Positions 46,479 through 63,502 of a stretch of DNA of 64,000 nucleotides are shown here, one piece after another; the stretch's first letter is position 1, and each line of letters starts with the position of its first letter. This DNA comes from Rhodospirillales bacterium. GTDB lineage: Bacteria; Pseudomonadota; Alphaproteobacteria; Rhodospirillales; Magnetospirillaceae. Below the pieces are notes generated by a model. The model had not been told where the DNA came from and did no database searches. It saw nothing but the letters and a program-made list of their open reading frames with translations. A program made the translations under genes and the position numbers. The stretch spans positions 1 through 64,000 of the forward strand of contig JACFNC010000017.1 of assembly GCA_019455065.1 (NCBI GenBank), in the 5' to 3' direction.

Positions 46479-46874
46479 ATGAGCATCCGTCGTTCCAGCC
46501 TGATCGCCCTCGCCGCCCTCGCCACCGTCGCCGTCGCCGGCCCCTCCTTCGCCGGGGAGAAGGGCGGGGTGCCGCTGGTCAGCAACAACACCGTGGTCGC
46601 CACCAACGTCGCCGCCGGCATCGGCAACACCGCCAAGCAGGACATCTTCGCCAGCCAGCGCGGCGGCGGGATGAAGTCGGGCCCGATGTTCGGCTCCAAC
46701 TCGATCTTCGCCGACAACACCGCGGCGGGCATCGGCAACAAGGCCAAGCAGACCCTCGACGTGCACCAGCGTGCGCCCAAGGGCGTGTTCGGCAGCAACA
46801 CCGTCGACGCCCGCAACCTCGCCGCCGGCATCGGCAACTACGCCCGCCAGGACATCTACGCGCGCCAGCGCTAA
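46479..46874 (+). CDS. Curlin-like secreted repeat protein 1
   Basis: This 131-residue protein has a signal peptide (cleavage near SFA-GE, residue 25). Three repeats follow, each with a GxxNxAxQ core: GIGNTAKQ (47-54), GIGNKAKQ (84-91) and GIGNYARQ (117-124). The repeats are Asn/Gln/Gly-rich, with upstream N-x5-N spacing like curlin repeats (S-x5-Q-x-G-x2-N-x-A-x3-Q). I infer an exported amyloid-type subunit or nucleator, supported by the CsgG-like gene nearby. An acaaaggagac ribosome site precedes the ATG. Curlin homology by motif is not proof of amyloid. Confidence 0.72.
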   Translation: MSIRRSSLIALAALATVAVAGPSFAGEKGGVPLVSNNTVVATNVAAGIGNTAKQDIFASQRGGGMKSGPMFGSNSIFADNTAAGIGNKAKQTLDVHQRAPKGVFGSNTVDARNLAAGIGNYARQDIYARQR

Positions 46875-46902
46875 CGCGGCTTCCCGCCGCCCTGCCGGAA
46901 CG

Positions 46903-46942
46903 CCGACCGGAAGCCCCGCGCTTCCGGTCGGTCGTTGTTTCG
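46903..46942 (+). terminator. Terminator after curlin-like gene 1
   Basis: The stem CCGACCGGAAGC / GCTTCCGGTCGG (12 bp, loop cccgc) is followed by tcgttgttt. A similar stem ends the duplicated gene on the other strand. Confidence 0.8.
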
Positions 46943-47006
46943 AGCGACGTCCGTGCCGGCCAAATGACCATTGCGCACGGCCCCGCACGATGATGGAGTA
47001 CCAGCC

Positions 47007-47387
47007 ATGAGGAAGCTTGCCGTCGCACTGCCCCTGGCCGCGGCGATCCTGTCCGGGATTGCCCCGTCCGCCTACGCCCAGGCCCGCAGCTGCGTCACCA
47101 TCAATGGCGAGACGAGATGCAGCGAGGGCCAGCAGTCCCTGTCCTGCTCGACCGTCAACGGCCGCACGACCTGCCTGGAGGGGCCCGGCCGCCTGGACTG
47201 TCGCTCGATAAACGGGGAAACCACCTGCACCGCCTCCCCCGAGCCCGCCGACCCCACCGAGACGCCAAACGCCGACGACGAGGACGACTTCGTGGAGGAG
47301 GAGGCCATCGACTCCGAGGCCACGATCCATCGCGACGGCACCGGCCTGCGCGTCCGCGCCGGCGGGGTGGATATCCGCATCGACTAA
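47007..47387 (+). CDS. Secreted Cys-repeat protein, unknown
   Basis: This 126-residue protein has a signal peptide ending near SAYA-QA (residue 24). It then has three tandem 18-residue repeats, each with a Cys pair: SCVTINGETRCSEG, SCSTVNGRTTCLEG and DCRSINGETTCTAS (Cys29/38, 47/56, 65/74). The regular spacing suggests stacked disulfide-linked hairpins. An acidic linker (DDEDDFVEEEAIDSE) and a short C-terminal strand GLRVRAGGVDIRID follow. It may be cotranscribed with curlin-like gene 1 by readthrough. No known family is recognised. Confidence 0.7.
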   Translation: MRKLAVALPLAAAILSGIAPSAYAQARSCVTINGETRCSEGQQSLSCSTVNGRTTCLEGPGRLDCRSINGETTCTASPEPADPTETPNADDEDDFVEEEAIDSEATIHRDGTGLRVRAGGVDIRID

Positions 47388-47560
47388 ACGTACGCGCTCC
47401 GCACCCGAGGTCCGGTGGTCCCGGATTGCCGGGTCAAGCCCGGCAATGACGGAGAAAATCGTGCCTCCGTCTGCATGCGTTCAACCCCGGGCGTCCCCCC
47501 GGGGGTCCCGGGTATTGCCGGGGCGTGCCCGCCAACGAACCCATAGGAACGATCGTTTCC
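47388..47560. repeat. Intergenic short inverted repeats
   Basis: This gap holds short palindromic elements: cggattgccgggtcaagccc...ggcaatgacgg (47419-47454) and a second with cccccgggggtcccgg. A copy of the first type lies at 53961-53995. No gene is seen. Confidence 0.65.
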
Positions 47561-47603
47561 TGTGGCCCGGTTCACAGACCGCGCCTCGCCCGCTCCGTAG
47601 ACT
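47561..47603 (+). promoter_or_regulatory. Class II Crp/Fnr-type promoter (DUF1150 gene)
   Basis: The site TGTGGCCCGGTTCACA (47561-47576) is followed after 21 bp by TAGACT (47598-47603). The DUF1150 ATG lies 37 bp downstream. Confidence 0.75.
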
Positions 47604-47640
47604 GCTCCCTACGACACACCCACTCGCAAGGAGTTCAGTC

Positions 47641-47874
47641 ATGTGCCAGTCGACCACTTATCAGGACGAGGCGTTGCGCCGATTGTCGAAGAAGCAGTTC
47701 GAGTATCTCGGCGTGTTCGATCACGCCTACATCCGCGCCGTGACCGTGAGCGGCGGGGGTACCGTCTACGCGATTCATTCCGCCGACGGACGGCTGCTTT
47801 GCCACACCTCCGACCGGCAGAGCGCGCTGATGGCGCTGTTCGAGCAGGATCTCACGCCGCTGACCGTCCACTGA
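47641..47874 (+). CDS. DUF1150 family protein
   Basis: This 77-residue protein fits the alphaproteobacterial DUF1150 family: LSKKQFEYLGVFDHAYIRAV, then VYAIHSADGRLLCHTSDRQSALMALFEQD and the typical ending PLTVH. Function is unknown; family members are often stress- or growth-phase-linked. A strong aaggagt site precedes the ATG. It is the first gene after a class II promoter and probably cotranscribed with the 47896 gene, 21 bp downstream. Confidence 0.85.
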   Translation: MCQSTTYQDEALRRLSKKQFEYLGVFDHAYIRAVTVSGGGTVYAIHSADGRLLCHTSDRQSALMALFEQDLTPLTVH

Positions 47875-47895
47875 CCGGAAAGCGGGAGAGCCGCC

Positions 47896-48447
47896 ATGAC
47901 ATTTCGCACCCGCCTCGCCGCCGCGGCGGCGGCCGTCGCCCTCACCCTCGCCACCGGAGCCGCCGGCCAGGAGGCCGGTGGCCTGGGGGTGACCAGCGAG
48001 GGCCTCGGCCCCTCGGCGCTGCCTTCGCCCCTGCCGGCGATGGGCGGCCCGCTGTACCAGGCCCCGGTCAACGTCCAGGCGGCCAATCCGGCCCGCGGGC
48101 GGCAGGCCGAGCATCAGCAGGCGATCGCCCGCATCCGCGGCGACGCCGGCTTTCTCGAAGGCTTCCACCGCGGCCAGCCCCTGGCCCCCAGCCGCCAGCC
48201 GCCACCGGAATTCTTCGATCCCGGGTTCGTGCTGATCGAGCCCTTCGTCATCAACAATTTCGGCAGCGCGGTCAGCATCGACCTTGAAGAAGGCGCCCTG
48301 ACCACCCCCGAGGACGGCGGCGACGGGACCTTCACACCTGTTCCCCTGCCGTCGGCCGCGCCGACCATCAACAACGTCGGCAGCATCGTCAACGTCGCTT
48401 CCGGCACCGGCAACGTCGCCCAGCAGACCATCGTCATCGGCCGCTGA
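47896..48447 (+). CDS. Secreted protein with curlin-like C-terminal motif
   Basis: This 183-residue protein has a signal peptide (LAAAAAAVALTLATGAAGQEA). The C-terminal half has two Asn-rich strands, FVINNFGSAVSIDLEEG and TINNVGSIVNVASGTGNVAQQTIVIG; the second includes GTGNVAQQ, matching the GxxNxAxQ core of the curlin-like proteins in this region. It may be an adaptor or minor subunit of the same fibre system. The gene follows the DUF1150 gene closely on the same strand. No family is otherwise recognised. Confidence 0.65.
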   Translation: MTFRTRLAAAAAAVALTLATGAAGQEAGGLGVTSEGLGPSALPSPLPAMGGPLYQAPVNVQAANPARGRQAEHQQAIARIRGDAGFLEGFHRGQPLAPSRQPPPEFFDPGFVLIEPFVINNFGSAVSIDLEEGALTTPEDGGDGTFTPVPLPSAAPTINNVGSIVNVASGTGNVAQQTIVIGR

Positions 48448-48719: not shown

Positions 48720-49055
48720 TCAGTCGCGCGGCGTCACGATGCAGTAGGTCTCGGACAGGGCGCCCAGGGACACCGTCGCCGACTTGCCGTCGGACAGGCG
48801 CACGACGACGCGCCCGGCGCGGCTGGCCAAACCCATCGACACCGGATCGCGGTCGATGGCGTCGACCACCCGCTGCCCGTCGCGCCAGCACTCGAGCCGG
48901 CTGTTGCGGCTCGACGGCGAGACCTCGATCCCACCGCTGCCCAGTTCGGCCTTCGCGGGCCCGCTTTCGACGATGGTGGCGGCGGAGGGACCGGCCCAGG
49001 CCGTCAGAGCCGCCGTCAGCGCCAGCATGGCTTTCGTTTTCACTGCTGCCTCCAT
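48720..49055 (-). CDS. Small secreted CWxxG protein
   Basis: This 111-residue protein has a signal peptide (MLALTAALTAWAGPSAA). The mature part has RLECWRDGQRVVD followed by a strand-rich segment and a second Cys in ETYCIV, likely disulfide-linked. It resembles the 56576 protein (RLTCWQNGAKIIE ... AYTTCMV) in size, cysteine placement and pattern, so they form a small family within this locus. The role is unknown; chaperone-like or CsgH-like functions could be considered but have no direct support. It has its own class II promoter. Confidence 0.65.
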   Translation of the reverse strand: MEAAVKTKAMLALTAALTAWAGPSAATIVESGPAKAELGSGGIEVSPSSRNSRLECWRDGQRVVDAIDRDPVSMGLASRAGRVVVRLSDGKSATVSLGALSETYCIVTPRD

Positions 49056-49140: not shown

Positions 49141-50673
49141 TCAACCGCCTCCCGGCAGCACCGCAACCTGCATCGACCGGCTCCTGACCACCGTGTTCGG
49201 CAGCGCCGCGAAGGCCCGGAGAACATCGTTCAAGGATGCCTGGGGGATGACCTCGAGATCGGCGGCCTTGTACTGCTCGGGCAGCCCCATCCCGACCTCA
49301 TGCGGCGAGGCGACGCAGGCGATCTGCTCGCGCGCCCCGGGCTGGTCCATGCGGATGTTGAAGGGCCGCTGCGGGCCGGGCGGGATCTCGACCTGGGTGT
49401 TCGCCGCGAGGAACGGGTCGGGCTGGAAGCGGTTGGGGAAGATTCGCGCCACCGACCCGTCACCGTCGGCGTAGTAGCAGTAGAGGAAGCCGTCGGCGGT
49501 GGTCTGGGCTCGCACCACCAGTGCCTCGCCCGGCCGGTAGGTCGGCTGCGGGCCGCGGTCGCTGGCCAGGATGACGTCGGGCGCCGCGAACGATGCCGTT
49601 TCCGGCTCGGCCGGTTTCGGGCGCCCCTGCTCGACCGGCGGCAGCGCCCGGGCGGTCGCCGACCCCAGCATGCGATAGTAAAGGTCGAAGTCGACCCGAC
49701 CGGTGGCGATGAGGTCGTGGTCGGCCTGATAACGCCCCACGGCGGCGCGGGTGGCGGCGTCGTCGTTGCCATCGGTCGCTCCGTCGTAATAGCCGTCCGC
49801 CCGCAGCACCCGCTGGGCGAAGGTGACGCGTTCGGCGGGCGACATGTCGTCGTACCAGCTGCGGGCCTGGGCCATGTAGGCCGGGTTCGTCTGCTCGATG
49901 CCGAGGCACTGCCAGTACGGCACCCGCGCCAGCTTGCCCAGCACCTCGATGGCGCTGAGTTCGATCAGGGTGCGCACCGCCTGGTGCATGCCCTCGGAGC
50001 GGTTGAGCGAGACGTTGAAGGACAGCCCGGCCTTGTGAATCATGCCGCCGGCGTCGGCGCCGCGGCCAGACGAGACGACGGCGATCGAATTGCTGGCCGT
50101 GACGCCGGGCAGGATGCGCCGCGTCACCAGCTCGCCGACGCTGAGGTCGACCGAGATCATCGAGACGATCTGGTCGGCGGAGATCGCGAGGTCGACCTTT
50201 GGCAGGGATATGCCGGCGCTGGCCGCCTCGGCGATCACGTTCTCGTCGAGCTGGGTGATGGCGCCGCGCACGTAATAGGAGGGCGCGCGGAATTCGGGCC
50301 GCACGCCGACCATCCAGTAGAGGGCGTTGACGCTGTCGAGCGCCGGCTCGAAGTCGACGAAGCTGAAGGCGTTGCTGCGTTCGGACATGCGGGAGATGGC
50401 GGTGATCAGCATCTCCTTGGTGCCGCCCAGCAGCCGCCCCGTCTCGTCCGGGACGCCGTTGCTGGTGACGTAAATGTCCTGCTTGCCGTGCTTCCACAGA
50501 AGCGTGTCCATGCAGCGCAATGCTTCCGAGAAGCTGGAAATGGTCTTGACCGGCGCGGTCGACGGCTGGCGGATGACCGCCGCCTTCTCCGGCGCCGTGC
50601 AGGCCGAGGTGAACAAGACCGAGAGCGCGAGGATGCTCGCCGAGAGGCGAAGGTACCGTTCCTTGTGCGACAT
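49141..50673 (-). CDS. CsgG-like lipoprotein with PG-binding and DUF4384 regions
   Basis: This 510-residue protein has a lipoprotein signal (LSVLFTSAC, Cys25). Residues 40-257 resemble CsgG, the curli export channel: YYVRGAITQLDENV, a Val/Leu-rich transmembrane-type region VSMISVDLSVGELVTRRILPG, and GMHQAVRTLIELSAIEVLGKL. Residues 290-335 match a peptidoglycan-binding repeat (GYYDGATDGNDDAATRAAVG), and 378-465 a DUF4384 region (YRPGEALVVRAQTTADGFLYCYY). CsgG forms an outer-membrane secretion pore, so this is the likely exporter of the repeat proteins here. The PG-binding domain could anchor it to the wall. A start at 50712 with GGAG upstream is also possible. Confidence 0.75.
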   Translation of the reverse strand: MSHKERYLRLSASILALSVLFTSACTAPEKAAVIRQPSTAPVKTISSFSEALRCMDTLLWKHGKQDIYVTSNGVPDETGRLLGGTKEMLITAISRMSERSNAFSFVDFEPALDSVNALYWMVGVRPEFRAPSYYVRGAITQLDENVIAEAASAGISLPKVDLAISADQIVSMISVDLSVGELVTRRILPGVTASNSIAVVSSGRGADAGGMIHKAGLSFNVSLNRSEGMHQAVRTLIELSAIEVLGKLARVPYWQCLGIEQTNPAYMAQARSWYDDMSPAERVTFAQRVLRADGYYDGATDGNDDAATRAAVGRYQADHDLIATGRVDFDLYYRMLGSATARALPPVEQGRPKPAEPETASFAAPDVILASDRGPQPTYRPGEALVVRAQTTADGFLYCYYADGDGSVARIFPNRFQPDPFLAANTQVEIPPGPQRPFNIRMDQPGAREQIACVASPHEVGMGLPEQYKAADLEVIPQASLNDVLRAFAALPNTVVRSRSMQVAVLPGGG

Positions 50674-50852: not shown

Positions 50853-51248
50853 TTAGCGCTGGCGCGCGTAGATGTCCTGGCGGGCGTAGTTGTGGATGCC
50901 GGCGGCCAGGTTGCGAGCGTCGACGGTGTTGCTGCCGAACACGCCCTTGGGCGCACGCTGGTGAACGTCGAGGGTCTGCTTGGCCTTGTTGCCGATGCCC
51001 GCCGCGGTGTTGTCGGCGAAGATCGAGTTGGAGCCGAACATCGGGCCCGACTTCATCCCGCCGCCGCGCTGGCTGGCGAAGATGTCCTGCTTGGCGGTGT
51101 TGCCGATGCCGGCGGCGACGTTGGTGGCGACCACGGTGTTGTTGCTGACCAGCGGCACCCCGCCCTTCTCCCCGGCGAAGGAGGGGCCGGCGACGGCGAC
51201 GGTGGCGAGGGCGGCGAGGGCGATCAGGCTGGAACGACGGATGCTCAT
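50853..51248 (-). CDS. Curlin-like secreted repeat protein 2
   Basis: This 131-residue protein is identical to curlin-like protein 1 except at one position: His119 replaces Gly in the third repeat (GIHNYARQ for GIGNYARQ). Repeats 1 and 2 are unchanged (GIGNTAKQ, GIGNKAKQ). The gene and its promoter are an inverted duplicate of 46357-46874. It lies upstream of the CsgG-like gene on the same strand, the arrangement expected if subunit and channel are co-regulated. The altered third repeat may change nucleation, or be neutral. Confidence 0.72.
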   Translation of the reverse strand: MSIRRSSLIALAALATVAVAGPSFAGEKGGVPLVSNNTVVATNVAAGIGNTAKQDIFASQRGGGMKSGPMFGSNSIFADNTAAGIGNKAKQTLDVHQRAPKGVFGSNTVDARNLAAGIHNYARQDIYARQR

Positions 51249-51311
51249 GATAGGTGTCTCCTTTGTCTCTGTCTGCGCCGGGGCACCACGCCCCGGCCGC
51301 TCACGGGACGC

Positions 51312-51354
51312 ATATTCCCCCATCCCCCCGCCGCCCTCTGTTAAGCGCTTCACA
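51312..51354 (-). promoter_or_regulatory. Class II Crp/Fnr-type promoter (curlin-like gene 2)
   Basis: On the plus strand the site reads TGTTAAGCGCTTCACA (51339-51354); the minus-strand hexamer GAATAT (51317-51312) follows after 21 bp. The sequence is identical to the promoter at 46373. Confidence 0.7.
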
Positions 51355-51396
51355 GGAAATGCGGGTTGCGCAGAAATCTCGCCCACCCTGCTGCGG

Positions 51397-51599: not shown

Positions 51600-53078
51600 A
51601 TGCTGGAACAGCGCGGTTCTTCCCGGTCGAGGAGCGACATGCCGATGCGGGCGCGGCGCGGCGCGGCGGCGGTGATCGCGGGCCTTCTGGCGGTGGCGGG
51701 CTTCACCCTCCACCGGCATGCCGGGGGCCTGCTCGCGGCCATTGGACTGGATGTCGCGGCGCCGGTCGAGAACGTCGTCGCGCTGGCCGGCGGCGTGCTG
51801 GGCTGGCTGGGACTCGCCTATCTCGGCGTCGCCCTCACCGACGCCGCGGTCGCGCGAGCAACGGCAGGATCGCTGCGCGGACCGCCGCCCCGCCTGATCC
51901 AGGACCTGGCGCGCGTGGTGCTGTTCGCGGCCGCCGTCGTCGCCATCCTTGCCTATGTCTTCGACCTGCCGGTGGGCGGCCTGCTCGCGACCTCGGGCGT
52001 GCTGGTGGCGGTGATCGGTTTTGCACTGCGCAACATGATCGCCGACGTGTTCTCGGGGATCGCGTTGAACGTCGAGCACCCCTACCGCATCGGCGACTGG
52101 GTCGAGGTGGCGCCGGGGGTGACCGGCCGGGTGGCCGAGATCAATTGGCGCGCCACCCGCCTGGTGACCCGCGACCAAGTGTCGGTGGTGGTGCCGAACG
52201 GCCTGATCGCCGGCAGCCGCTTCCTCAACTACAGCTATCCCGAGCGCCACTACCGGGCCAATCTGCGACTGGCCCTGGACGCCGCGATTCCGGTCGAGCG
52301 GGCGAAGCGCATCCTGCTCGCCGCCGCCCTGGGGGCGCCGCGGGTACTGGCCGAGCCCCGGCCGCAGGTGCAGGCCGAGGGTCTGGACGAGCGTGGCGTC
52401 TGCTACGTGGTGCGCTATTGGGTGGCCGACTATGCCGACGACAATCCGTGCCGCGACGCCGTGATGTCGAACATCGCCCGCGCCCTCCAGCAGGCCGGCA
52501 TCGGCCCGGCCTTTCCGCATCGCGAAGTGGCACTCACGCGGCCGGCGGAGCGGCGCGCCCGGATGGGGCTGGCCGACATGCTGCGCCGCGTGGCGCTGTT
52601 CCGGGAGTTCGACGAGAGCGATGTCGAGGTGCTGGCCGCCATGGCACGGGAACGGCCGTTCCGGGAGGGCGAGCGCATCGTCGCCCAGGGCGAGGCGGGG
52701 GATTCGCTGTTCCTGCTTGCGGAGGGAGCGCTGGACGTGCGGGTCGCAGCGGCCGAGGGCGAGCGTCCGGCGACGGTCGACCGCATGCTTCCCGGCGAGG
52801 TGTTCGGCGAGGTGTCGCTGCTGACCGGACAGCCGCGCAGCGCTTCAATCTGCGCCGCCACCGACGGCATCGTCTACGAAATCCGCAAGGAACATCTGGA
52901 ACCCATCCTGCGCCGCCGCCCGCGCCTGGCGGAGGAACTGGCGGCGCTGATGAGCCGGCGCCAGAGCGCCAACCGCGAACGCATGGAGGCGGCCTCGACC
53001 GCCCCCGGCGCGCCGCCCGCAGCCGCCGAGCACCATGACCTGCTCGAAAGGCTGCGGGGCTTCTTCGGCCTGTCCTGA
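51600..53078 (+). CDS. MscS-type mechanosensitive channel with cNMP-binding domain
   Basis: This 492-residue protein has four likely N-terminal membrane helices (about 22-40, 58-80, 103-123, 128-150). The MscS core follows (GVLVAVIGFALRNMIADVFSGIAL, then VEHPYRIGDWVEV). A C-terminal cyclic-nucleotide-binding domain (about 345-460) has REGERIVAQGEAGDSLFLLAEG and GEVFGEVSLLTGQPRSASICA, with Glu and Arg-Ser at ligand positions. Channels of this class are thought to be tuned by cAMP or cGMP. The adjacent CHASE2 cyclase and Crp-like genes make cAMP control plausible. The start may be 51600 or 51639. Confidence 0.88.
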   Translation: MLEQRGSSRSRSDMPMRARRGAAAVIAGLLAVAGFTLHRHAGGLLAAIGLDVAAPVENVVALAGGVLGWLGLAYLGVALTDAAVARATAGSLRGPPPRLIQDLARVVLFAAAVVAILAYVFDLPVGGLLATSGVLVAVIGFALRNMIADVFSGIALNVEHPYRIGDWVEVAPGVTGRVAEINWRATRLVTRDQVSVVVPNGLIAGSRFLNYSYPERHYRANLRLALDAAIPVERAKRILLAAALGAPRVLAEPRPQVQAEGLDERGVCYVVRYWVADYADDNPCRDAVMSNIARALQQAGIGPAFPHREVALTRPAERRARMGLADMLRRVALFREFDESDVEVLAAMARERPFREGERIVAQGEAGDSLFLLAEGALDVRVAAAEGERPATVDRMLPGEVFGEVSLLTGQPRSASICAATDGIVYEIRKEHLEPILRRRPRLAEELAALMSRRQSANRERMEAASTAPGAPPAAAEHHDLLERLRGFFGLS

Positions 53079-53085
53079 CCCTGGG

Positions 53086-53787
53086 TCAGGCCCCGACCGG
53101 GCGGAACTGCACCCGCCGGTTCTCCGGCGCTTCCGGATTGCGCGACAGGGGTTCGCTCTCGCCCAGGCCCTCGACCACCAGCCGGCCGGGATCGATGTCC
53201 CAGGTACGCGCCAGATAGGCCTTGACCGCCTCGGCGCGCCGCAGCGACAGGCCCAGGTTGTAGGGCGCCGAGCCGCTTGAGTCGGTGTGGCCCTCGACCA
53301 CCAGCGCGAGGTCGGCCTCCTCGGTCAGCAGCTTGCCGAGCTGATCGAGGAAGGGGCGCGATTCCAGCATAAGGTCGGCCGAGTCGAAGCCGAACTGGAT
53401 GCGGTAGCCGATGGTCGTCGGCTTGGCGACGGGCGCCTCGGCCGGGGCGGTCGCCGGCGCGGCCTCGTCGGGCGCGGAGGGCTCGGCGGGGGCCGGCGCC
53501 GGCAGCGCGGCCGGAACGACCTCGGGGGCGGCGGGGGCCTGCGGCGCCGCAACCGTCGCCGCGGCGTCGGCGATCGCCGCCGGGCGGCTCGCCTGGGGCT
53601 TGACGAGGCCGGCCACGATCTCGATGCTGCGCGTCCGGCGCGGCGAATCGGGAACCAGATAGCCGCGCAACTCGTCGACCGACGGCGTCGCCTCCAGCAT
53701 CATCACCTCTTCGGCGGCGGCCGTTCCGGCGCCGAGGGCGGGCACGGCAAGCAGCAGGGCCGCGGTGGTCATCATCAGGGTCTTCAT
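53086..53787 (-). CDS. OmpA-family envelope protein
   Basis: This 233-residue protein has a signal peptide (TAALLLAVPALGAGTAAA), a Pro/Ala-rich linker (about 70-125) and an OmpA peptidoglycan-binding domain (about 127-233): FGFDSADLMLESRPFLDQL, then VEGHTDSSGSAPYNLGLSLRRAEAVKAYL and NRRVQFRPV. It would anchor the outer envelope to peptidoglycan. Its gene starts downstream of a class II promoter of the shared type, tying it to the amyloid-like genes. Confidence 0.88.
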   Translation of the reverse strand: MKTLMMTTAALLLAVPALGAGTAAAEEVMMLEATPSVDELRGYLVPDSPRRTRSIEIVAGLVKPQASRPAAIADAAATVAAPQAPAAPEVVPAALPAPAPAEPSAPDEAAPATAPAEAPVAKPTTIGYRIQFGFDSADLMLESRPFLDQLGKLLTEEADLALVVEGHTDSSGSAPYNLGLSLRRAEAVKAYLARTWDIDPGRLVVEGLGESEPLSRNPEAPENRRVQFRPVGA

Positions 53788-53821
53788 GGTTTGCCTCCTG
53801 TTGGCTCACTAGATGGGCGCC

Positions 53822-53864
53822 ACCCTAACGACGCTCCCGCCCGCGGGCTGTGAAGCGGTCCACA
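53822..53864 (-). promoter_or_regulatory. Class II Crp/Fnr-type promoter (OmpA-family gene)
   Basis: On the minus strand the site TGTGGACCGCTTCACA (53864-53849) is followed after 21 bp by TAGGGT (53827-53822), 34 bp before the ATG. On the plus strand the site reads TGTGA-N6-CCACA, one base off the E. coli Crp consensus. Confidence 0.75.
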
Positions 53865-54027
53865 GCGCCGGCCGAATCTTGCGGAGGATTGCCGGCCCCG
53901 GCGGGCGGGCGCATGTCAAGGGAGGTTCCTCCAAGTCGTCCTCGGCCTCGCCCCGGGGGCCTTGGATTGCAGGGTCAAGCCCGGCAATGACGCGCGGGAC
54001 TGATTCACGGGCCAAGCGGAGGGCGGC

Positions 54028-55854
54028 ATGGAGCGGCCGGTGTCCGTCGCCGAGGGCATCGTCATGGCGGCAGGGGCGGCCCTGCTGGCCCTGGCCGCGG
54101 TGGAGGCCCTGCCGCCGCTGGCGGCGGCCGACCGCTTCGTCGAGGACGTGGCGGTGGCCCGCCTGGCCCCGCCCCTGCCCCAGCACGCCGGAATCGCCAT
54201 CGTCGCGATCACCGAGGACACCCTGGCCCGCCTGCCCTATCGCTCGCCGCTCGACCGCGGGCTGGTGGCCGAGGCCATCGCCCATCTGCGGATCAAGGGG
54301 GCACGCGCGATCGGCCTCGATTTGCTGATCGATCAGCCGACCGAGCCCGCCAAGGACGCCGCCCTGCGCGCCGCCCTGACCGCCCCGGGCGCCCCGGTGA
54401 TCGCCCTGGCGGCGGGCCTCTCGACCCCGCTTACCCCCCGCCAGCGCGCCTTCCACGACGCCTTCCTGTCCGCCGTCGCCAAGGGCCACGGCAACCTCGC
54501 CAAGGACCGCCTGGACGGCGTGGTGCGCCGCCACGTTCCCAGCCTCGACGGCCTGCCCAGCTTTCCAGCCGCGCTGGCGGCCACCCAGAGGGCGGCCGCC
54601 CCGCCCCGGACCTTCACCATCGCCTGGCGCCGCACCGCCGACGGCAGCGGCCCCTTTCCCGTCTACCCGGTGGACGCATTGGCGTTCCTGCCCGAGGCCT
54701 GGCTGGCGGGCAAGATCGTCCTGATCGGCTACGTCGTGCCCGACGCCGACCGCCACCGCGCCCCACCGTCGGTCGGTGCCGGCCCGCTGCCGGGAGTGGA
54801 GATTCAGGCGCAGGTGCTGGCGCAGATTCTGGACGGGCGGTCCGCCCCCCAGGCGGGATGGCCGTGGCGGGTGTTCGCCCTGCTGCTGGTCGCGGGCGGC
54901 GGCGCGGCCCTGGCGCTCGCCGGATGGCGGCCGGCGTGGCTGGCGCCGGCGGCGCTCGGCGGGCTGGCGGCACTGTGGGCGGCGGCGGCGGCCAGCGTCG
55001 CCCTGGGCGGGCCGCTGCTCTCGCCGCTCGCCCCCAGCCTGGCTTGGCTGGGCGCCATCGGCGGCGCCTCGGCGCTGGCGGCGGTGCGCGAGCGGCGCAC
55101 GCGGACCGCCCTGGGCGGGCTGTTCGCCGCCCATCTGTCGGCCCCAGTGGCGGAACAAATCTGGCGCGAGCGAAACGTCTTTCTGCGCGGCGGGCGCCCC
55201 CGCCCGCAGGCCTTGATGGCCACCGTGCTGTTTTCGGACGTGGAGGGGTTCACGCCGGCATCGGAGGCCCTGGGGCCGGAACGGCTGATGGCGTGGCTCG
55301 AGGAATATATGGAAGCGATGACCGACGTCGTGGTCGCCCATGACGGAGTGGTCCTGCGGTTCATCGGCGACGGCATCCTGGCCGCCTTCGGCGTGCCCAT
55401 TCCGCGCAGGGACCCTGACGCGGTGCGTGGTGACGCCCGCCGCTCCGTGGACTGCGCCCTGGCCATGGAGGACGCCGTGCGGCGGCTGAACGCCACCGTC
55501 GTGGCGCGGGGCCTGCCGGCCTATCGCGTGCGCGTCGGCATCGTCACCGGACCGATGGTCGGCGGCAGCATCGGGGCGCGCAAGCATCTGGAATACACCC
55601 TGATGGGCGACAGCGTGAATACGGCCGCCCGCCTGGAGGCGCTGGCGAAGACCGTGGAGGCGGCCGCCGACAGCCCGTGCCGCATCCTGGTCGGCGCGAG
55701 CACCTGGGACCTGGTGGGCGATGCGTTCGAGGGGCAAACCATCGGCGAGGTGGCTCTGAAGGGCAAGCGGCAGCGGGTTGGCGTGTATCAGATCTTCGGC
55801 CGGGCCGGGGCCGGGCCGGCCGCCGCCGGCCGGGCGGCCGGTACGGCGGTCTGA
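54028..55854 (+). CDS. CHASE2-domain class III adenylate/guanylate cyclase
   Basis: This 608-residue protein has an N-terminal membrane anchor, a periplasmic CHASE2 sensor (about 40-260), three membrane helices (about 285-355) and a class III cyclase domain (about 390-590). Cyclase motifs are VLFSDVEGFT and RFIGDGILAAFG (metal-binding Asp residues) and EYTLMGDSVNTAARLEAL. An Arg replaces the lysine often seen before FIGD, so nucleotide specificity (cAMP or cGMP) is uncertain. It probably makes a cyclic nucleotide in response to an extracellular or periplasmic signal. It ends 67 bp inside the convergent Crp-like gene. Confidence 0.87.
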   Translation: MERPVSVAEGIVMAAGAALLALAAVEALPPLAAADRFVEDVAVARLAPPLPQHAGIAIVAITEDTLARLPYRSPLDRGLVAEAIAHLRIKGARAIGLDLLIDQPTEPAKDAALRAALTAPGAPVIALAAGLSTPLTPRQRAFHDAFLSAVAKGHGNLAKDRLDGVVRRHVPSLDGLPSFPAALAATQRAAAPPRTFTIAWRRTADGSGPFPVYPVDALAFLPEAWLAGKIVLIGYVVPDADRHRAPPSVGAGPLPGVEIQAQVLAQILDGRSAPQAGWPWRVFALLLVAGGGAALALAGWRPAWLAPAALGGLAALWAAAAASVALGGPLLSPLAPSLAWLGAIGGASALAAVRERRTRTALGGLFAAHLSAPVAEQIWRERNVFLRGGRPRPQALMATVLFSDVEGFTPASEALGPERLMAWLEEYMEAMTDVVVAHDGVVLRFIGDGILAAFGVPIPRRDPDAVRGDARRSVDCALAMEDAVRRLNATVVARGLPAYRVRVGIVTGPMVGGSIGARKHLEYTLMGDSVNTAARLEALAKTVEAAADSPCRILVGASTWDLVGDAFEGQTIGEVALKGKRQRVGVYQIFGRAGAGPAAAGRAAGTAV

Positions 55855-56564
55855 TCCGCCTCGGCATCGCCCGCCAGGGCGCCAAGCGACGCGGCGTCGG
55901 CGACGGTGATGTAGCCGTTCCGGATGGCGATCCACCCCGCCTTCTGCCATTCGCCGAGATACTTGTTCACACTTTCACGGGTCACGCCAACCACCGAGCC
56001 CAACTGCTGCTGCGAAAGCTTGAGGTCGATGCACACACCGGCCTTGGCGGGGATGCCGAAGGCGCTGGCGAGTTGCAGCAGGGCGCGCGCCAGCCGCGCC
56101 GGCACGTCGAGAAAGATCGCGTCCTCGAAATGGGTGCTGGTGCGCCGGAGACGTTGGCAGAGAACGGCGAGCAGGCGCTGGGCGACGCGCGGATGGCGGT
56201 CGAGGAAAGGCAGGAAATGGCGGCGCTCCAAGATCAGCAGCTCGCAAGTCTCCATGGCGACGGCGTCGGCGGTGCGGGGCTCGCCGTCGAGCAGGGCGAT
56301 CTCGCCGAACACGTCACCGGGCTTGAGGATGTTGAGCACAAGTTCCTTGCCGTCGGCGGAATGGTTGCAGATCTTTACCCGCCCCCGGACCACCGCCATC
56401 ATGCCGTCACCTGGATCACCGCGCTGGAAGATCACCGCATCGGCCTCGTGCCGGACGACCACGGCATAATCGGCAAGCCGCGCGCGGTCCGCGGGATCGA
56501 GGCTACCCAGCAGCGCGTTGCGCGCCAGGATGGCCTCCTTGTCGATGGGAAAGGCGCGCGCCAT
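55788..56564 (-). CDS. Crp/Fnr-family regulator
   Basis: This 258-residue protein has a cNMP-binding domain (FGEIALLDGEPRTADAVA, with Glu88, Arg98 and Thr99 at the usual ligand positions) and a helix-turn-helix (LSQQQLGSVVGVTRESVNKYLGEW, 183-206). Recognition residues Arg196, Glu197 and Lys201 parallel Arg180, Glu181 and Arg185 of E. coli Crp, which read TGTGA half-sites. That matches the TTCACA half-sites of the six class II promoters in this region. No Fnr-type cysteine cluster is seen. The C-terminal ~25 residues are Ala/Pro-rich. It follows the 56576 gene by 11 bp. Confidence 0.88.
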   Translation of the reverse strand: MARAFPIDKEAILARNALLGSLDPADRARLADYAVVVRHEADAVIFQRGDPGDGMMAVVRGRVKICNHSADGKELVLNILKPGDVFGEIALLDGEPRTADAVAMETCELLILERRHFLPFLDRHPRVAQRLLAVLCQRLRRTSTHFEDAIFLDVPARLARALLQLASAFGIPAKAGVCIDLKLSQQQLGSVVGVTRESVNKYLGEWQKAGWIAIRNGYITVADAASLGALAGDAEADQTAVPAARPAAAGPAPARPKI

Positions 56565-56575
56565 GACGCCGGCGC

Positions 56576-56917
56576 CTAGCGGGCCTCGGGCCGCGCGGCC
56601 GCCCGCCTGTCGCTGCTCTTCACCATGCAGGTCGTGTAGGCGTTGGCCGAAAACAGCACCGCCGTCTCGCCGCCCACCAGGCTGCGTGCCGAAGTGCGGG
56701 TGCCAAAGCGAGAGAGCGCGACGGACAACTCCGACAGCCCGTCCTCCTCGATGATCTTGGCGCCGTTCTGCCAGCAGGTCAGCCGGAAGGGGCCGTCGGG
56801 CAGCAGGCGCAGGCCGGACATGCCTTCCTCGGCGGGCTCCTCGCGCACGACCTCGGCGCTCGCGGGGACGGCTAGAACGAGGGAGAGGATAACGAAAAAG
56901 GCGGCCTGGAAGGGCAT
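56576..56917 (-). CDS. Small secreted CWxxG protein
   Basis: This 113-residue protein has a signal peptide (FFVILSLVLAVPASAE). The mature part has RLTCWQNGAKIIE, strand-rich sequence and a second Cys in AYTTCMV. It resembles the 48720 protein in layout and cysteine placement. It precedes the Crp-like gene by 11 bp on the same strand, so the two are probably cotranscribed. The role is unknown. Confidence 0.65.
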   Translation of the reverse strand: MPFQAAFFVILSLVLAVPASAEVVREEPAEEGMSGLRLLPDGPFRLTCWQNGAKIIEEDGLSELSVALSRFGTRTSARSLVGGETAVLFSANAYTTCMVKSSDRRAAARPEAR

Positions 56918-57103: not shown

Positions 57104-59614
57104 ATGTATTTGCTTTTGAAGCATCACAGTGGTGTTCGCGCTTCAATGTTGGGACGACACCGCATTGTAGACATCGTAGCGGGATGGCGACGCGTCTTTC
57201 GTGAGGGCGCGGCGCTGGTAGTCGTGGTCGTTGGGCTGTGCCTCATCGCCGCAAACGCCACCGCCGCCACGGAGCGGCGGGTCGCGCTGGTCGTCGGCAT
57301 GGGCGCCTACAGCTATGCTCCGCATCTGCCCAATCCGCCCAACGATGCGCGCTCCATGGCCAAAAAGCTGGCGAAGCTGGGGTTCGACGTGGACGAGCGG
57401 GTCGACGTCGATTTCCGCGACCTCGCCCGCGCGCTGCGCGAGTTCGGGATCAAGGCGCAGATGGCGGACGTGGCCGTATTCTATTACGCCGGCCACGGCA
57501 TGCAGGTGGACGGCGAAAACTATCTGATTCCGATCGATGCCCGCCTGGAGCGCGAGCGCGACCTGGTCTACGAGGCGATGGCCCTGGATCTGGCAATGGG
57601 CGAGGTGGCCCAGGCGCGCACGCTGGGCATCGTGATCCTGGACGCCTGCCGCAACAATCCCTTCGTCGAACGCCTGATCCGGGTGGCCGCGCAGCCGTCG
57701 CGCGCCGTCTCGATCGGCCAGGGGCTGGCGCGGGTCGACGATCCGCCGAAGGACACCATGGTGGCGATGGCCACCCGAGCCGACGCCGTGGCCGAGGACG
57801 GCGACGGATCCAACAGCCCCTTCACCCAGGCGATGCTTGAGTTCCTGGAAGTGCCCGGCCTGGAACTCGGGCTGTTCTTCCGCAAGGTGCGCGACGCCGT
57901 GCTCAGGGTGACGCGCGGCCGCCAGGAGCCCTACACCTTCGGCTCGCTGGGCGCCGAGCCCTTCTTCTTCAACCCGCTGCCACCGAACCGCCAACCGGTC
58001 ATCCCGGCACTCGCCCCGGTCGAGTTCAACGACAGTGCGGTGGCGCGACCGCTGGCCATCGACGGCCTGACGGACCCCGACGGCGACCGCCTGGTGGTGC
58101 GGCTGACCGGCCTGCCCCGCGGCGGCAACGTGCGGCTGGGCGACCGCACGCTGCTGATCGGCGACGCGCTGACGCCGGAGCAGTTGAAAAACGTGAGCTT
58201 CACCCCCGACGGCAGCTTCCGCGGCCAGGCCGGCCCCCTCACCTTCTCGGTCGAGGACGGCCGCGGCGCCGTCGTGTTCGGCAGCCTGTTCGTCAAAATC
58301 ATCCCGTCCAACCGCCCGCCCACCGTGGCCGCCAAAGAACTGGTGCAGGTGGTGGCCAATCCGCTGGGCCTGCGGGCGCCGGTCGATCCCGACGGCGACG
58401 CCTTGACGATCACGGTGACCGCGGTGCCGAAGGTCGGAACGATCCGGACCGGCGCCGGCGCCGTGGTCAAGGCCGGCGACCGTCTGGACGCGGCCGGACT
58501 GGAGTCCTTGAGTTTCGATCCCGGCGCGGCGCCGCCCGGCGAGGCCGGCAGCTTCGCCTTCCTGGTCGACGACGGCAAGGGCGGCCGCGCCGAGGCCAGC
58601 CTGCGCGTCAGCGTGGTCGAGCACCCCGCCCCGACGGTGGCGGCGGCATCGGCGCCCCCCGCGCCGGCGCCGGCCGCGCCAGAGCCGCAGGCCGCACCTG
58701 TGGCGCAGGCTGCCGCGACTGCCCAACCCGCGGTGCCGCCCGAGGCCGAGGAGCCGCCGACCCAGATCGCCGCCGCCATCGCACCGACTCCGCCCCCCGC
58801 AGCGCCGCGCCGACCGCAACCCGCCGCCGCACCCGCGCCCGCCCCACCGCCGCCGACGCCCAAGCCGCCGGCGCAACCCGCCGTGGGCGTGTTCCCGACC
58901 GAAGGTGCGCTGCGCGACTGCGACGAATGCCCGGCGCTGGTCGAGATCCGTCCTGGCAGCTTCGTGATGGGGGCGGCGGGAGAGGACCCGAGTTCGCGGC
59001 CGGAGCACAAGGTGACGCTGAAGAGCGGCTTCGCCATCGGCAAGTACGAGGTCACGGCCGGCGAATGGCGGGCCTGCGTGGCGGCCGGCGGCTGCCGCGA
59101 GGTGCCGGAGCTGGAGGGGACCGCGAACAACCTGCCGGCCCGCAACCTCGACTGGGACGACGCCCAGTCCTACCTCACCTGGCTGTCGAAGAAGTCGGGC
59201 AAGAAGTATCGGCTGCCCAGCGAGGCGGAGTGGGAATACGCGGCGCGCGGGGGCACGCGGAGCACCTATTGGTGGGGCGCCGACCTGGGCAAGGGCAAGG
59301 CGAACTGCAAGGATTGCGGCGGCGACTACGACCGCAAGACGCCGGCCCGGGTGGACGCCCATCCCGCCAACCCCTTCGGCCTGCACGGCACCGCAGGGGG
59401 CGTCGCGGAATGGGTGGCGGACTGCTGGTCGCCGTCGCATGCCGGCGCCCCGACCGACGGCGCGGTGCGCGACTCCCGCAACTGCCGCCAGCGCGTGGTG
59501 CGCGGCGGGTCGTGGCGCAACGACCACACCTACGCCACCTCGGCCAGCCGCTTCTACTACGACGCCGACGTACGCTACATCGCCAACGGCTTTCGGGTGG
59601 TGCGGCAGCCCTAG
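57104..59614 (+). CDS. Caspase-like protein with C-terminal SUMF1/FGE domain
   Basis: This 836-residue protein has an N-terminal membrane segment (about 36-53) and a peptidase C14-like domain (57-300) with the catalytic pair His131 in FYYAGHGMQ and Cys182 in ILDACRNNPF. Residues ~320-520 hold two strand-rich repeats (PDGDRLVVRLTGLP; PDGDALTITVTAVP) like cadherin-type Ig-fold repeats. A Pro/Ala-rich linker leads to a SUMF1/formylglycine-enzyme-like domain (about 609-836: FVMGAAGEDPSSRPEH, GEWRACVAAGG, RGGSWRNDH, NGFRVVR). Such fusions are thought to be processing or signalling proteins of the envelope. A later start at 57146 is possible. Confidence 0.83.
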   Translation: MYLLLKHHSGVRASMLGRHRIVDIVAGWRRVFREGAALVVVVVGLCLIAANATAATERRVALVVGMGAYSYAPHLPNPPNDARSMAKKLAKLGFDVDERVDVDFRDLARALREFGIKAQMADVAVFYYAGHGMQVDGENYLIPIDARLERERDLVYEAMALDLAMGEVAQARTLGIVILDACRNNPFVERLIRVAAQPSRAVSIGQGLARVDDPPKDTMVAMATRADAVAEDGDGSNSPFTQAMLEFLEVPGLELGLFFRKVRDAVLRVTRGRQEPYTFGSLGAEPFFFNPLPPNRQPVIPALAPVEFNDSAVARPLAIDGLTDPDGDRLVVRLTGLPRGGNVRLGDRTLLIGDALTPEQLKNVSFTPDGSFRGQAGPLTFSVEDGRGAVVFGSLFVKIIPSNRPPTVAAKELVQVVANPLGLRAPVDPDGDALTITVTAVPKVGTIRTGAGAVVKAGDRLDAAGLESLSFDPGAAPPGEAGSFAFLVDDGKGGRAEASLRVSVVEHPAPTVAAASAPPAPAPAAPEPQAAPVAQAAATAQPAVPPEAEEPPTQIAAAIAPTPPPAAPRRPQPAAAPAPAPPPPTPKPPAQPAVGVFPTEGALRDCDECPALVEIRPGSFVMGAAGEDPSSRPEHKVTLKSGFAIGKYEVTAGEWRACVAAGGCREVPELEGTANNLPARNLDWDDAQSYLTWLSKKSGKKYRLPSEAEWEYAARGGTRSTYWWGADLGKGKANCKDCGGDYDRKTPARVDAHPANPFGLHGTAGGVAEWVADCWSPSHAGAPTDGAVRDSRNCRQRVVRGGSWRNDHTYATSASRFYYDADVRYIANGFRVVRQP

Positions 59615-60377: not shown

Positions 60378-60800
60378 TCACTTCACGTAGACCGTGATCT
60401 TCTTCGAGGCGACGGGCTTGTCGTGCGGGAAGTGTTTGTAGTCGCCCATCAGGAGTTGAAGGGTGTGCCTGCCGGGCGGCAATTCGAGCTGGGTCTCGGT
60501 CTCGCCGGCCCCGAAATGCAGGTGGTTGCGGTCCGACGGGATGGGCTCGTCATTGGGCGGCAGGTCGGTGTCGACGAGCAGATGATGGTGGCCGGTGTTC
60601 GGGTGGTCGATATCCTTCGGTGCCACCCCCATGCCGCGCAGACCGAACCAGACCCGGAACGGGCTGCGGACGGTCTCGCCGTCGTTCGGCCAGCCGATGT
60701 AGAGATAGGCGTCCTCGGGCGAGGGCGTGCTCTGGGCCAACGCCGCCGATCCCCCCATCATCAGGGCCGCCGACATGGCGGCAACGATCATCTTGCTCAT
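60378..60800 (-). CDS. DUF4399 secreted protein 1
   Basis: This 140-residue protein has a signal peptide (AAMSAALMMGGSAALA). The DUF4399 core follows: YIGWPNDGETVRSPFRVWFGLRGMGVAP, then GHHHLLVDTDLPP and LPPGRHTLQLLMGDYKHF. The His-rich patches suggest metal binding. It overlaps its paralogue upstream by 4 bp (ATGA). The family is periplasmic and of unknown role. Confidence 0.85.
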   Translation of the reverse strand: MSKMIVAAMSAALMMGGSAALAQSTPSPEDAYLYIGWPNDGETVRSPFRVWFGLRGMGVAPKDIDHPNTGHHHLLVDTDLPPNDEPIPSDRNHLHFGAGETETQLELPPGRHTLQLLMGDYKHFPHDKPVASKKITVYVK

Positions 60801-61231
60801 CGCTCTCCTCCTGGAACGATCACGGTAATCCTTTCGCTCACAAGCGGCGGATCGAAGGGGAAGTGGTCGTGATCCCCGAGCACTAGTTGCAGGGTGTGCC
60901 GCCCCGGCGGCAGCTCGATTCGGGCCTCGGATTGCCCATTCCCGAAATGAAGGTTGTTGCGGTCGTTGGGGATCGGCTCGCCGGGTGGCGGGAGATCCGT
61001 GTCGACGAGGACGTGATGATGGCCAATATCGGGCCATTTCACGTTGGCGGGCGCGACCCCCATGTTTCTCAAACCCATGCGAAGCCACAACTTCCCCCCT
61101 TCGATGACCTGCCCGTTCTTTGGCCAGATGATGTAGAGGCGTGCGCCCTGGGGCGCGGGCACGTTTTGCGCGGCGACCGGCCCGCCCAGTATCGCCAGGG
61201 CCGCCGCGACGGTTGCGGTGAGACGCATCAT
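60797..61231 (-). CDS. DUF4399 secreted protein 2
   Basis: This 144-residue paralogue of the preceding protein has a signal peptide (ATVAAALAILGGPVAAQ) and the same core: YIIWPKNGQVIEGGKLWLRMGLRNMGVAP, GHHHVLVDTDLPP, LPPGRHTLQLVLGDHDHF. Start is the ATG-ATG pair at 61231/61228. The tandem pair arose by duplication and is translationally coupled. Confidence 0.85.
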   Translation of the reverse strand: MMRLTATVAAALAILGGPVAAQNVPAPQGARLYIIWPKNGQVIEGGKLWLRMGLRNMGVAPANVKWPDIGHHHVLVDTDLPPPGEPIPNDRNNLHFGNGQSEARIELPPGRHTLQLVLGDHDHFPFDPPLVSERITVIVPGGER

Positions 61232-61411: not shown

Positions 61412-62536
61412 ATGATCGAGCGCATGGCGCCCGCGTGGTTGCTAATGCTCGCCGCGACGGCCGTGGGCGGACCGGCGGCGGCGGAAGGCATCGTGCTGTC
61501 GTCGACGGCCCCCGGCATGACGGTGGGGCGAATGATCGCGGACGACGAGACCCTGCGCCTGCCCGAGGGCTCGCTCACCACGCTGCTCCTTCCAACCGGC
61601 CAGACCCTCACCCTGGCCGGGCCATACGACGGCAAGCCCGCGCCGCCGCAGGGTGGCGGCGGCGCGAGCGGCGGCCTTGCGGACTGGAAGGGGCTGGACC
61701 TGTCGTCGCTGGGCGGCACCCGCGGGGAACGGCTGGCGCGCGTCGCGATTCCGGACGCCGCGGCGCCGCTGAGCATCGACGCCAGCATGGCGGGAACCTG
61801 GTGCGTCCTTTCCGGGACCCCGTTGCGGCTGGCCGCCCCGAAAGCGGCTGGGGCCGCCACGCTCCATCTCGAGGACGCGCGCACGAAGGCGACCGCCGTG
61901 GTCTCATGGCCGGACGGGAAGGACCAGCCCTGGCCGCCGCAACTGCCGGTCGCCGACGGAACCACCATCCTGGCCCGCCCCCAAGGCGCCGACGCCCCCC
62001 ATCCCATCCGGTTCCGCGCCACCGACGACGGCGCGGCGGACGACTTCTCGCGGGTGGTGTCGTGGTCGCGGGCGGGGTGCTACCGCCAGGCGGCGCCGTT
62101 CCTGCGCGAAATCGGCGCCCAGGTGGCGCCGTTCGAGCTGTATTTGTCGACGAATCGCGGGCGCACGCCGCGCTACGTCATCGGCGAAACCGTGACCCTG
62201 GTGCTGCAAAGCAACCGGCCGGCCAACCTTCGCTGCTACCTGCTGAGGGACGCCAGCGTCTCGCCGCTGTTCCTGGAGCCGCCCGGCTTCGTGCGGCTGG
62301 CGGACCACACGGAACTGCGCATTCCCGGCGAGCGGGTCGCCATCGAGATCGCCGCCCTGCCGCCGCCCGGGGTGGGCGAGGTGCGCTGCTACGCGGTCGA
62401 CCCGGCCGGCGGTTCGAAGCTTGCCATTCCCGGCGACGCCCTCACCGACCCCACCGGGCAGCGCCTCGACCGCCTGTTCGGCGGCCTTTCGGAGGGCAGG
62501 GTCGCCCGCGCGACCCTGCATATCCGCATCGACTGA
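61412..62536 (+). CDS. Secreted DUF4384-like protein
   Basis: This 374-residue protein has a signal peptide (WLLMLAATAVGGPAAAE). Its C-terminal third (about 255-345) resembles DUF4384: YVIGETVTLVLQSNRPANLRCYLLRDASVSPLFLEPP, closely parallel to the same region of the CsgG-like protein. The N-terminal part has strand-rich sequence and two cysteines. DUF4384 is often attached to envelope or caspase proteins. It is divergent from the DUF4399 pair. Confidence 0.72.
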   Translation: MIERMAPAWLLMLAATAVGGPAAAEGIVLSSTAPGMTVGRMIADDETLRLPEGSLTTLLLPTGQTLTLAGPYDGKPAPPQGGGGASGGLADWKGLDLSSLGGTRGERLARVAIPDAAAPLSIDASMAGTWCVLSGTPLRLAAPKAAGAATLHLEDARTKATAVVSWPDGKDQPWPPQLPVADGTTILARPQGADAPHPIRFRATDDGAADDFSRVVSWSRAGCYRQAAPFLREIGAQVAPFELYLSTNRGRTPRYVIGETVTLVLQSNRPANLRCYLLRDASVSPLFLEPPGFVRLADHTELRIPGERVAIEIAALPPPGVGEVRCYAVDPAGGSKLAIPGDALTDPTGQRLDRLFGGLSEGRVARATLHIRID

Positions 62537-62554
62537 GGGTCCCGGCCCCTCCGC

Positions 62555-62920
62555 CTATCGCTGGAGCGCAAATCCGTATTGCCCGGCGAAGTTGGCGACG
62601 CCCCCGGCGACGCTTGTGGTGACCAGGGTGCCGGCGTCAACCGCGCCGCCCCGCCCGCCTGCCTGCATCGCGCCCAGGTTCTGCCGCGCCGCGTTGCCGA
62701 TGCCGGCGGCGACGTTGTTGGCCACCGTCGTTTCCGTGCTGACCAGCGGTCCGGGACCGAAGAACTGGCCGGCCGCCATGGGATGGCCGCCCGGCTGCAT
62801 CATCATCACCATCGGCGGGGCGCCGGACACCGGGATCCCCCCGGTCTTGGCCTCGCCACCGAATGCCGGGCCGCAGGCCAGCGAAAGAGCGGCCAGCATC
62901 GCGCACAACAAAGTCTTCAT
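62555..62920 (-). CDS. Curlin-like secreted repeat protein 3
   Basis: This 121-residue protein has a signal peptide (LLCAMLAALSLACGPAFG). It has one clear repeat, VANNVAAGIGNAARQNLGAMQ, and a degenerate one, TSVAGGVANFAGQYGFALQ, both with the GxxNxAxQ core. A Met/Pro/Gly-rich linker lies between the signal and repeats. It differs from curlin-like proteins 1 and 2 outside the repeats and probably has a distinct role, for example a minor or nucleating subunit. A class II promoter lies upstream. Confidence 0.7.
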   Translation of the reverse strand: MKTLLCAMLAALSLACGPAFGGEAKTGGIPVSGAPPMVMMMQPGGHPMAAGQFFGPGPLVSTETTVANNVAAGIGNAARQNLGAMQAGGRGGAVDAGTLVTTSVAGGVANFAGQYGFALQR

Positions 62921-62976
62921 AACGGACACTCCTCTCGTCGCACCGGGGCCGATCCCCGGCGATCGCGTCAGGGGCC

Positions 62977-63019
62977 AGTCTAGCGGCCGCGCGCGCCCCT
63001 TGCTGTCGACGGGTTCACA
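62977..63019 (-). promoter_or_regulatory. Class II Crp/Fnr-type promoter (curlin-like gene 3)
   Basis: On the plus strand the site reads TGTCGACGGGTTCACA (63004-63019). On the minus strand TAGACT (62982-62977) follows after 21 bp, 56 bp before the gene's ATG. The plus-strand direction toward the 63104 gene has no matching hexamer. Confidence 0.72.
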
Positions 63020-63103
63020 GTTACCGAGCGTTGGGCGGCCGGCTCGAACAATTCGAGCCTCGCGCGTGTTGTAGCTGGCAGGCGAGATGACGAGGAGGGG
63101 ACG

Positions 63104-63502
63104 ATGCTTGATTTTGGTTGGCGGGCTCCGGCGATGGCGCTGGTGCCCTTGATGCTGGCCGCGTGCGCGAGCGAGCCGCCGCCGGCGAGCCTGCAGGCGG
63201 CCCGGGTGCAGGTCGGGCAGGCGACGGCGCCGACGCCCGACGCGCAGTTGCACCTGCAAGAGGCGCGCGAGAAGCTGAACGCGGCGGAGCAGGCCGCCGC
63301 CAGCGACGACATGGCGGAGGCCGACATGCTGGCGCAGGAGGCCTTGGCCAACGCGCAACTGGCCCGGGCGTCCGTGCAGGCCGCCGAAGCCGAGCAGGCG
63401 GTGCGCGACGTCGAGCGCGCGATTCAGGCGCTGCGCGCCGAAACAAATCCAGGTGCGCCTCCCGCCGCCGCCGCGCCCGCCCAACCCACCGGCACGAGAT
63501 AG
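63104..63502 (+). CDS. DUF4398 lipoprotein
   Basis: This 132-residue protein has a lipoprotein signal (LVPLMLAAC). The mature part is a long helix with LHLQEAREKLNAAEQAAASDDMAEADMLAQEALANAQLARA, the DUF4398 pattern. These are envelope proteins, often paired with OmpA-domain proteins, as here with the next gene, 9 bp downstream. Confidence 0.82.
   Translation: MLDFGWRAPAMALVPLMLAACASEPPPASLQAARVQVGQATAPTPDAQLHLQEAREKLNAAEQAAASDDMAEADMLAQEALANAQLARASVQAAEAEQAVRDVERAIQALRAETNPGAPPAAAAPAQPTGTR

Follow-up and report, generated by a model that had tools for sequence, protein, structure and literature searches.

Curli and Fap, two functional-amyloid machines, are regarded as separate systems whose exporters are unrelated. 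We analyzed a 64,000-nucleotide stretch of DNA (the window; positions 1 to 64,000 of contig JACFNC010000017.1, contig 26 of the assembly GCA_019455065.1) from a Rhodospirillales bacterium with a genome of 3.96 Mb. Gene calls and Pfam scans cover an island at 46.4–64 kb of the window, where a gene for a CsgG-like lipoprotein lies among genes for small secreted repeat proteins, here called RepA1, RepA2, RepA3, and RepB. The closest named relatives at this locus are Telmatospirillum and Azospirillum. The HfaABD proteins of Caulobacter are a close functional analogue (PMC6707917). On balance, we lean toward reading the island as a surface-fiber export system of the CsgG/HfaB kind, in which a peptidoglycan-tethered exporter secretes Fap-like repeat subunits.

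Results

The Channel Candidate Is Predicted to Have a CsgG Fold

The candidate channel gene (49141..50673, minus strand) encodes a lipoprotein whose signal peptide ends in SAC; by inspection, its orthologues carry L-x-[AG]-C lipoboxes. A CsgG region (residues ~40–250) is followed by PG_binding_1 (281–335; Pfam E = 5e-11) and DUF4384 (378–458; E = 1.6e-19) domains, and the Pfam CsgG alignment extends over the part of the fold that holds both transmembrane hairpins of CsgG. Among NCBIfam models, HfaB comes closest to the channel domain (E = 1.5e-5), although the score of 24.3 bits fails the 300-bit equivalog cut-off of that model. When a profile of 13 channel orthologues was compared with E. coli CsgG by hhalign, the two matched at 91% (E = 9.4e-7). 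Consistently, the best 19 Protein Data Bank (PDB) matches found by Foldseek for the AlphaFold model of the channel monomer were all CsgG (E = 7.4e-7, probability 1.00). A preliminary description of this DNA, made from its letters, had proposed a CsgG-like channel fused to a peptidoglycan-binding repeat and DUF4384 and expected structure prediction to return the CsgG fold; our data agree on both points, and we predict from the model that the protein has this fold. The order CsgG–PG_binding_1–DUF4384 is retained in most orthologues across Alphaproteobacteria; the orthologue at comparison locus L069 is without the peptidoglycan-binding segment. The literature searched held no paper combining DUF4384 and CsgG.

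The Repeats Resemble FapC More Than Curlin

RepA1 (46479..46874, plus strand), a candidate fiber subunit, is a secreted protein of 131 residues. Its start codon is preceded by aaaggag, and its signal peptide is followed by GGVPL and three repeats of the form N-x5-N-x-AAG-x-x-N-x-A-x-Q-x5-Q. RepA2 (50853..51248, minus strand) is a second copy of RepA1, 99% identical at the amino acid level and differing by one G-to-H substitution in its third repeat. RepA3 (62555..62920, minus strand), whose start we corrected to about position 62920, is a secreted protein of 121 residues with the mature sequence TGGIPV and two repeats. RepB (47896..48447, plus strand) is also secreted, with a mature GGLGV start, and is a candidate minor subunit or nucleator; its domain RGDAGYLxGFxxGQPLAxSRQPP is conserved and is followed at the C terminus by one repeat here and by two in Azospirillum.

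The G-x-x-N-x-A-x-Q motif, reported earlier in three small secreted proteins and the C terminus of a fourth, was found three times each in RepA1 and RepA2, twice in RepA3, and once, at the C terminus, in RepB. Among 20,000 shuffles of each mature sequence, none reached at least three copies for RepA1, and two reached at least two copies for RepA3. For RepB, 148 of the 20,000 had at least one copy, so its single repeat is supported mainly by conservation among orthologues. A total of 38 distinct units from 13 homologues fit N-x5-N-x-A-A-G-x-x-N-x-A-x-Q-x5-Q, with N, N, G, N, A, Q, and Q near-invariant. All repeat proteins of the RepA/RepB kind found in this genome lie within the island. Run across the class, the repeat profile matched only this genome; the genomes sampled included channel orthologues with other clients.

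The preliminary description had taken the repeats to be curlin-like, an identity that Pfam, curlin pattern, and profile tests rule out. The Pfam curlin family (PF07012; Q-x-G-x2-N) had no match at E ≤ 10 in island members or in the genome, hhalign comparison with CsgA gave E = 0.3–0.4 with 61 of 200 shuffles scoring as well, and for CsgB 11 of 200 shuffles scored as well. In contrast, the repeat profile matched the three imperfect repeats of one Pseudomonas FapC, taken from a PDB alignment, with 66% probability (E = 5.6e-5); this score was equaled by none of 200 shuffles and none of 150 periodicity-preserving column permutations, and the reversed sequence failed. The common core is N-x-A-A-G-x-G-N-x3-Q/N. 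The strict Fap pattern G-x4-N-x3-G-x6-N (PMC3792158) was met by 0 of the 38 units, the last position being Gln and never Asn. Since a single-unit HMMER repeat profile did not clearly detect FapC (CsgA was undetected), the likeness is one seen by hhalign at the level of profiles. As the repeats fail the curlin tests and match FapC, they are better called Fap-like than curlin: the RepA repeats resemble FapC more than curlin.

Structure prediction of the repeats, which had been suggested as a check, gave three strand-turn-strand units for mature RepA1 (predicted local distance difference test score, pLDDT, 71.5). In the PDB, Foldseek ranked a FapC fibril first (E = 4e-4) and a CsgA fibril second (E = 0.06) among matches of this model. 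The profile and Foldseek signals for FapC are not fully independent, because Foldseek also uses sequence, and we take the structure matches to hint at an amyloid fold without proving it.

The Island Is Conserved in Azospirillum

Three Azospirillum loci (sp. TSO35-2, A. doebereinerae, and A. ramasamyi) have one common gene order: two DUF4399 genes, channel, OmpA, a gene for a small CW-x-x-G protein, DUF4384-2, cyclase, and caspase-SUMF1; then, on the opposite strand, RepB, Crp, and the Cys protein, followed by RepA if the contig extends far enough. The channel orthologue on an A. ramasamyi plasmid (WP_111069504) is 65% identical, in the same gene order. RefSeq names the channel there "DUF4384 domain-containing protein" and the subunits "hypothetical protein", with no function recorded. 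Elsewhere, too, most of the island genes have homologues that occur together; locus L101, for example, keeps DUF4384-2, both DUF4399 genes, caspase-SUMF1, channel, Crp, CHASE2 cyclase, OmpA, MscS, RepB, DUF1150, and the Cys protein. From this conserved synteny we conclude that the channel and the repeat-protein set belong together. Just upstream of the island in A. ramasamyi (L151:9142-10470) lie genes for a sigma-70 family factor and a zf-HC2 protein.

At six loci of more distant relatives (L064, L066, L067, and L102–L104), RepA is replaced near the channel by other secreted repeat proteins of a GGVKIGGN type. Small secreted proteins with a QELNKR- or REYNKR-like mature start were seen at four of them (L103:10211-10519, L104:10561-10842, L066:10146-10472, and L067:8471-8755); their genes separate the channel gene from that of the repeat client, and they are candidates for a second partner in non-Azospirillum loci.

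RepA, RepB, and the other clients usually have GG[VIL]x[LIVP] within a few residues of the mature start. By a crude signal-peptide rule, the loci encode 139 secreted proteins, of which 30 have the motif; in 800 kb of background taken from two of these genomes, 3 of 158 have it (p = 3e-8). Partial homology among the locus proteins means that this p-value overstates independence, and two or three of the 30 do not look like clients. We hypothesize that this motif may act as an export tag, by analogy with the N terminus of CsgA.

The Channel Gene Lies between Inverted Copies of RepA

RepA1 and RepA2 are two copies of one gene carried on the arms of an inverted repeat. The arms (46357..46874, with RepA1, and 50853..51370, with RepA2) are 518 bp each and 99% identical, with five mismatches, and enclose a 4-kb block that includes the channel gene. 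At L060 and L061 the counterpart of this block has the opposite orientation with respect to the MscS gene, which hints at a past inversion and is consistent with recombination between the repeat copies.

Other Genes of the Island and the Window

The remaining genes bear out the neighborhood of OmpA, DUF4398, DUF4399 (two genes), caspase-SUMF1, and small CWxxG proteins described earlier. Between RepA1 and RepB lie genes for two conserved island members, a secreted Cys protein (47007..47387, plus strand) with three CxTINGxTxC-like motifs and no Pfam match, and a 77-residue DUF1150 protein (47641..47874, plus strand; E = 1.2e-10) without a signal peptide. CW1 (48720..49028, minus strand), a small secreted CW-x-x-G...C protein encoded directly 3′ of the channel gene, is a candidate accessory factor, and CW2 (56576..56917, minus strand) is a second small CW-x-x-G protein. 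Sequence searches of the PDB with the CW, repeat, RepB, and channel alignments returned nothing relevant.

A set of genes related to cyclic AMP (cAMP; 51639-56564) is conserved in Azospirillum and L101. It consists of an MscS-type channel with a cyclic-nucleotide-binding domain (51639..53078, plus strand), a neighbor also at L060, L061, L063, L101, and L102; a CHASE2 adenylate/guanylate cyclase (54028..55854, plus strand); and a Crp/Fnr regulator (55788..56564, minus strand), the last two being conserved island members. An OmpA-domain periplasmic protein (53086..53787, minus strand) is encoded near the channel gene in most loci. A secreted protein with caspase (C14), Ig-like, and SUMF1 domains (57146..59614, plus strand), also a conserved island member, precedes two DUF4399 genes (60378..60800 and 60797..61231, minus strand) and a second DUF4384-like secreted protein (DUF4384-2; 61412..62536, plus strand; E = 0.0013, below the cut-off). 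A DUF4398 lipoprotein-like gene (63134..63502, plus strand) is followed by an OmpA-type lipoprotein gene (63512..64000, plus strand), which extends beyond the window end. The order RepA–DUF4398–OmpA recurs at L071, where a RepA-type gene lies beside DUF4398 and OmpA genes (L071:8137-10135), like 62555-64000 of the window.

Outside the island, a lower-GC glycan biosynthesis cluster (16000-38000) encodes asparagine synthases, methyltransferases, and Wzz-like and flippase-like proteins. A tie between this cluster and the island was considered and dropped, because the cluster is not syntenic with the island. At 4001-6000, GC content drops to 0.48 compared with ~0.68; this is probably a foreign patch and yielded no confident gene call.

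Discussion

We infer every step of the proposed system: export, wall binding, fiber formation, and regulation. The lipoprotein would form a CsgG-type oligomeric pore in the outer membrane, and its C-terminal PG_binding_1 and DUF4384 domains would extend into the periplasm and fasten the pore to peptidoglycan, with the help of OmpA-domain proteins. The three RepA proteins and RepB would enter the periplasm unfolded by Sec, be recruited, probably via the GG[VIL]x[LIVP] segment at the mature N terminus, and then cross the pore. Outside the cell, RepA repeats would stack as strand-turn-strand units into Fap-like cross-beta fibers, and RepB, with one or two repeats behind its conserved domain, may serve as nucleator or base. 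CW proteins may substitute for the missing CsgE, CsgF, and CsgC helpers, and cAMP, through the CHASE2 cyclase and Crp, may control expression. Of the variant amyloid-export system first proposed, the predicted CsgG-fold lipoprotein with its built-in peptidoglycan-binding and DUF4384 domains, encoded beside secreted repeat proteins in a genome without CsgE and CsgF, is supported; the curlin identity of the repeats is not.

Several observations weigh against a fiber export system. The Pfam CsgG match of the channel (E = 0.0029) is below the cut-off, the channel (pLDDT 71) and RepA1 models are both of moderate confidence, and Foldseek template-modeling (TM) scores of the RepA1 matches are only 0.13–0.16 (FapC: 0.16, probability 0.33). 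Channel orthologues at L065, L069, L070, and L105 (the last a relative of L069) have no obvious client nearby, and one genome (G049, locus L071) has a RepA gene, and its sequence (91% complete) yielded no channel gene of full length. Azospirillum RepA proteins are without the GG motif. Finally, the sequence link of RepA to the other client types is weak: phmmer gave 2e-4 for two GGVKIGGN-type clients, and hhalign results were mixed, with 0 to 16 of 60 shuffles as good.

The relation of the channel domain to HfaB and the presence of glycan genes at ~16–38 kb would suit a channel distantly analogous to HfaB that sets small multimers of RepA and RepB on the surface to anchor polysaccharide rather than to make free fibers. 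We think this unlikely, given the low score against the HfaB cut-off, the position of the glycan genes outside the conserved island, and the lack of any NCBIfam HfaA or HfaD match among the repeat and neighboring window proteins scanned (no genome-wide search was made). The CsgG-like protein could instead be a periplasmic or ring-type scaffold, or an envelope-stress lipoprotein, forming no pore, with the repeat proteins as beta-solenoids of the surface or periplasm that have no relation to it. The weaker structure matches do include FlgT and the LPHT ring (ranks 20 and 30), the caspase-SUMF1, OmpA, and DUF4384 neighbors recall envelope proteins, and clients differ among loci. Such a scaffold seems improbable to us: the E-value of CsgG is some three orders of magnitude better than those of the FlgT and LPHT ring matches, the Pfam alignment takes in the region of both transmembrane hairpins, and repeat proteins recur beside the channel.

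There is also a slim chance that RepA proteins are soluble, non-amyloid beta-solenoids, for example ice- or surface-binding ones, whether this system or another exports them. Foldseek did match RepA1 to ice-binding beta-helices, but these stand below FapC and CsgA, which rank first and second; the near-invariant Asn and Gln positions, as in functional amyloids, and the FapC profile match also argue for fibers over soluble solenoids.

Returning to fiber export, a bolder extension, possible but doubtful, would make the island a third functional-amyloid machine besides curli and Fap, with a wall-bolted CsgG-fold channel, interchangeable GG[VIL]x[LIVP]-tagged repeat clients (of Fap type in Azospirillaceae and with different repeats in other Alphaproteobacteria), and cAMP control. 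If CsgG-type channels do serve Fap-like subunits, then subunits and exporters can be recombined, and a wall anchor can form part of the pore protein. Plant-associated Azospirillum may then carry unrecognized amyloid-like surface fibers, now labeled "hypothetical" and "DUF4384". The common N-terminal motif offers a directly testable export signal.

Comparison with Known Systems

Like Caulobacter HfaA/HfaB/HfaD, the island combines an alphaproteobacterial CsgG relative with candidate amyloid-like clients; unlike its channel, which scores far below the HfaB cut-off, the HfaB model is without a PG_binding_1/DUF4384 part. With E. coli curli (csg) it has in common an outer-membrane lipoprotein of the CsgG family, with small secreted repeat proteins encoded next to it, and, if export holds, the principle of exporting Sec-delivered unfolded subunits. 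It differs in the domains added to the channel, in repeats that match FapC instead of curlin, and in being without CsgE and CsgF, of which the preliminary description had seen no clear sign. A genome search for CsgE gave no match with E ≤ 1 (the E. coli control was detected), and the best CsgF match (E = 0.83) was below the cut-off and on another contig. Both proteins can be missing from alphaproteobacterial curli systems (PMC3521004).

The repeat core is in register with the FapC imperfect repeats of Pseudomonas (PDB 9u4u and 9nqd), and, as in FapB/FapC, there are usually three repeats with variable linkers between them; the profile match is significant. Unlike Fap, the island has Gln in place of the last Asn and a CsgG-like exporter, and no FapF-type barrel, FapD protease, or FapE was recognized among the island genes, no genome-wide search having been made. 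The Azospirillum DUF4384 proteins (WP_111069504) are orthologues of the candidate channel, for which the RefSeq label covers the C-terminal domain only. The pairing of a CsgG-type channel with Fap-like repeat proteins suggests that a conserved, unnamed island in Azospirillum-like bacteria is an uncharacterized way to build amyloid-like surface fibers.

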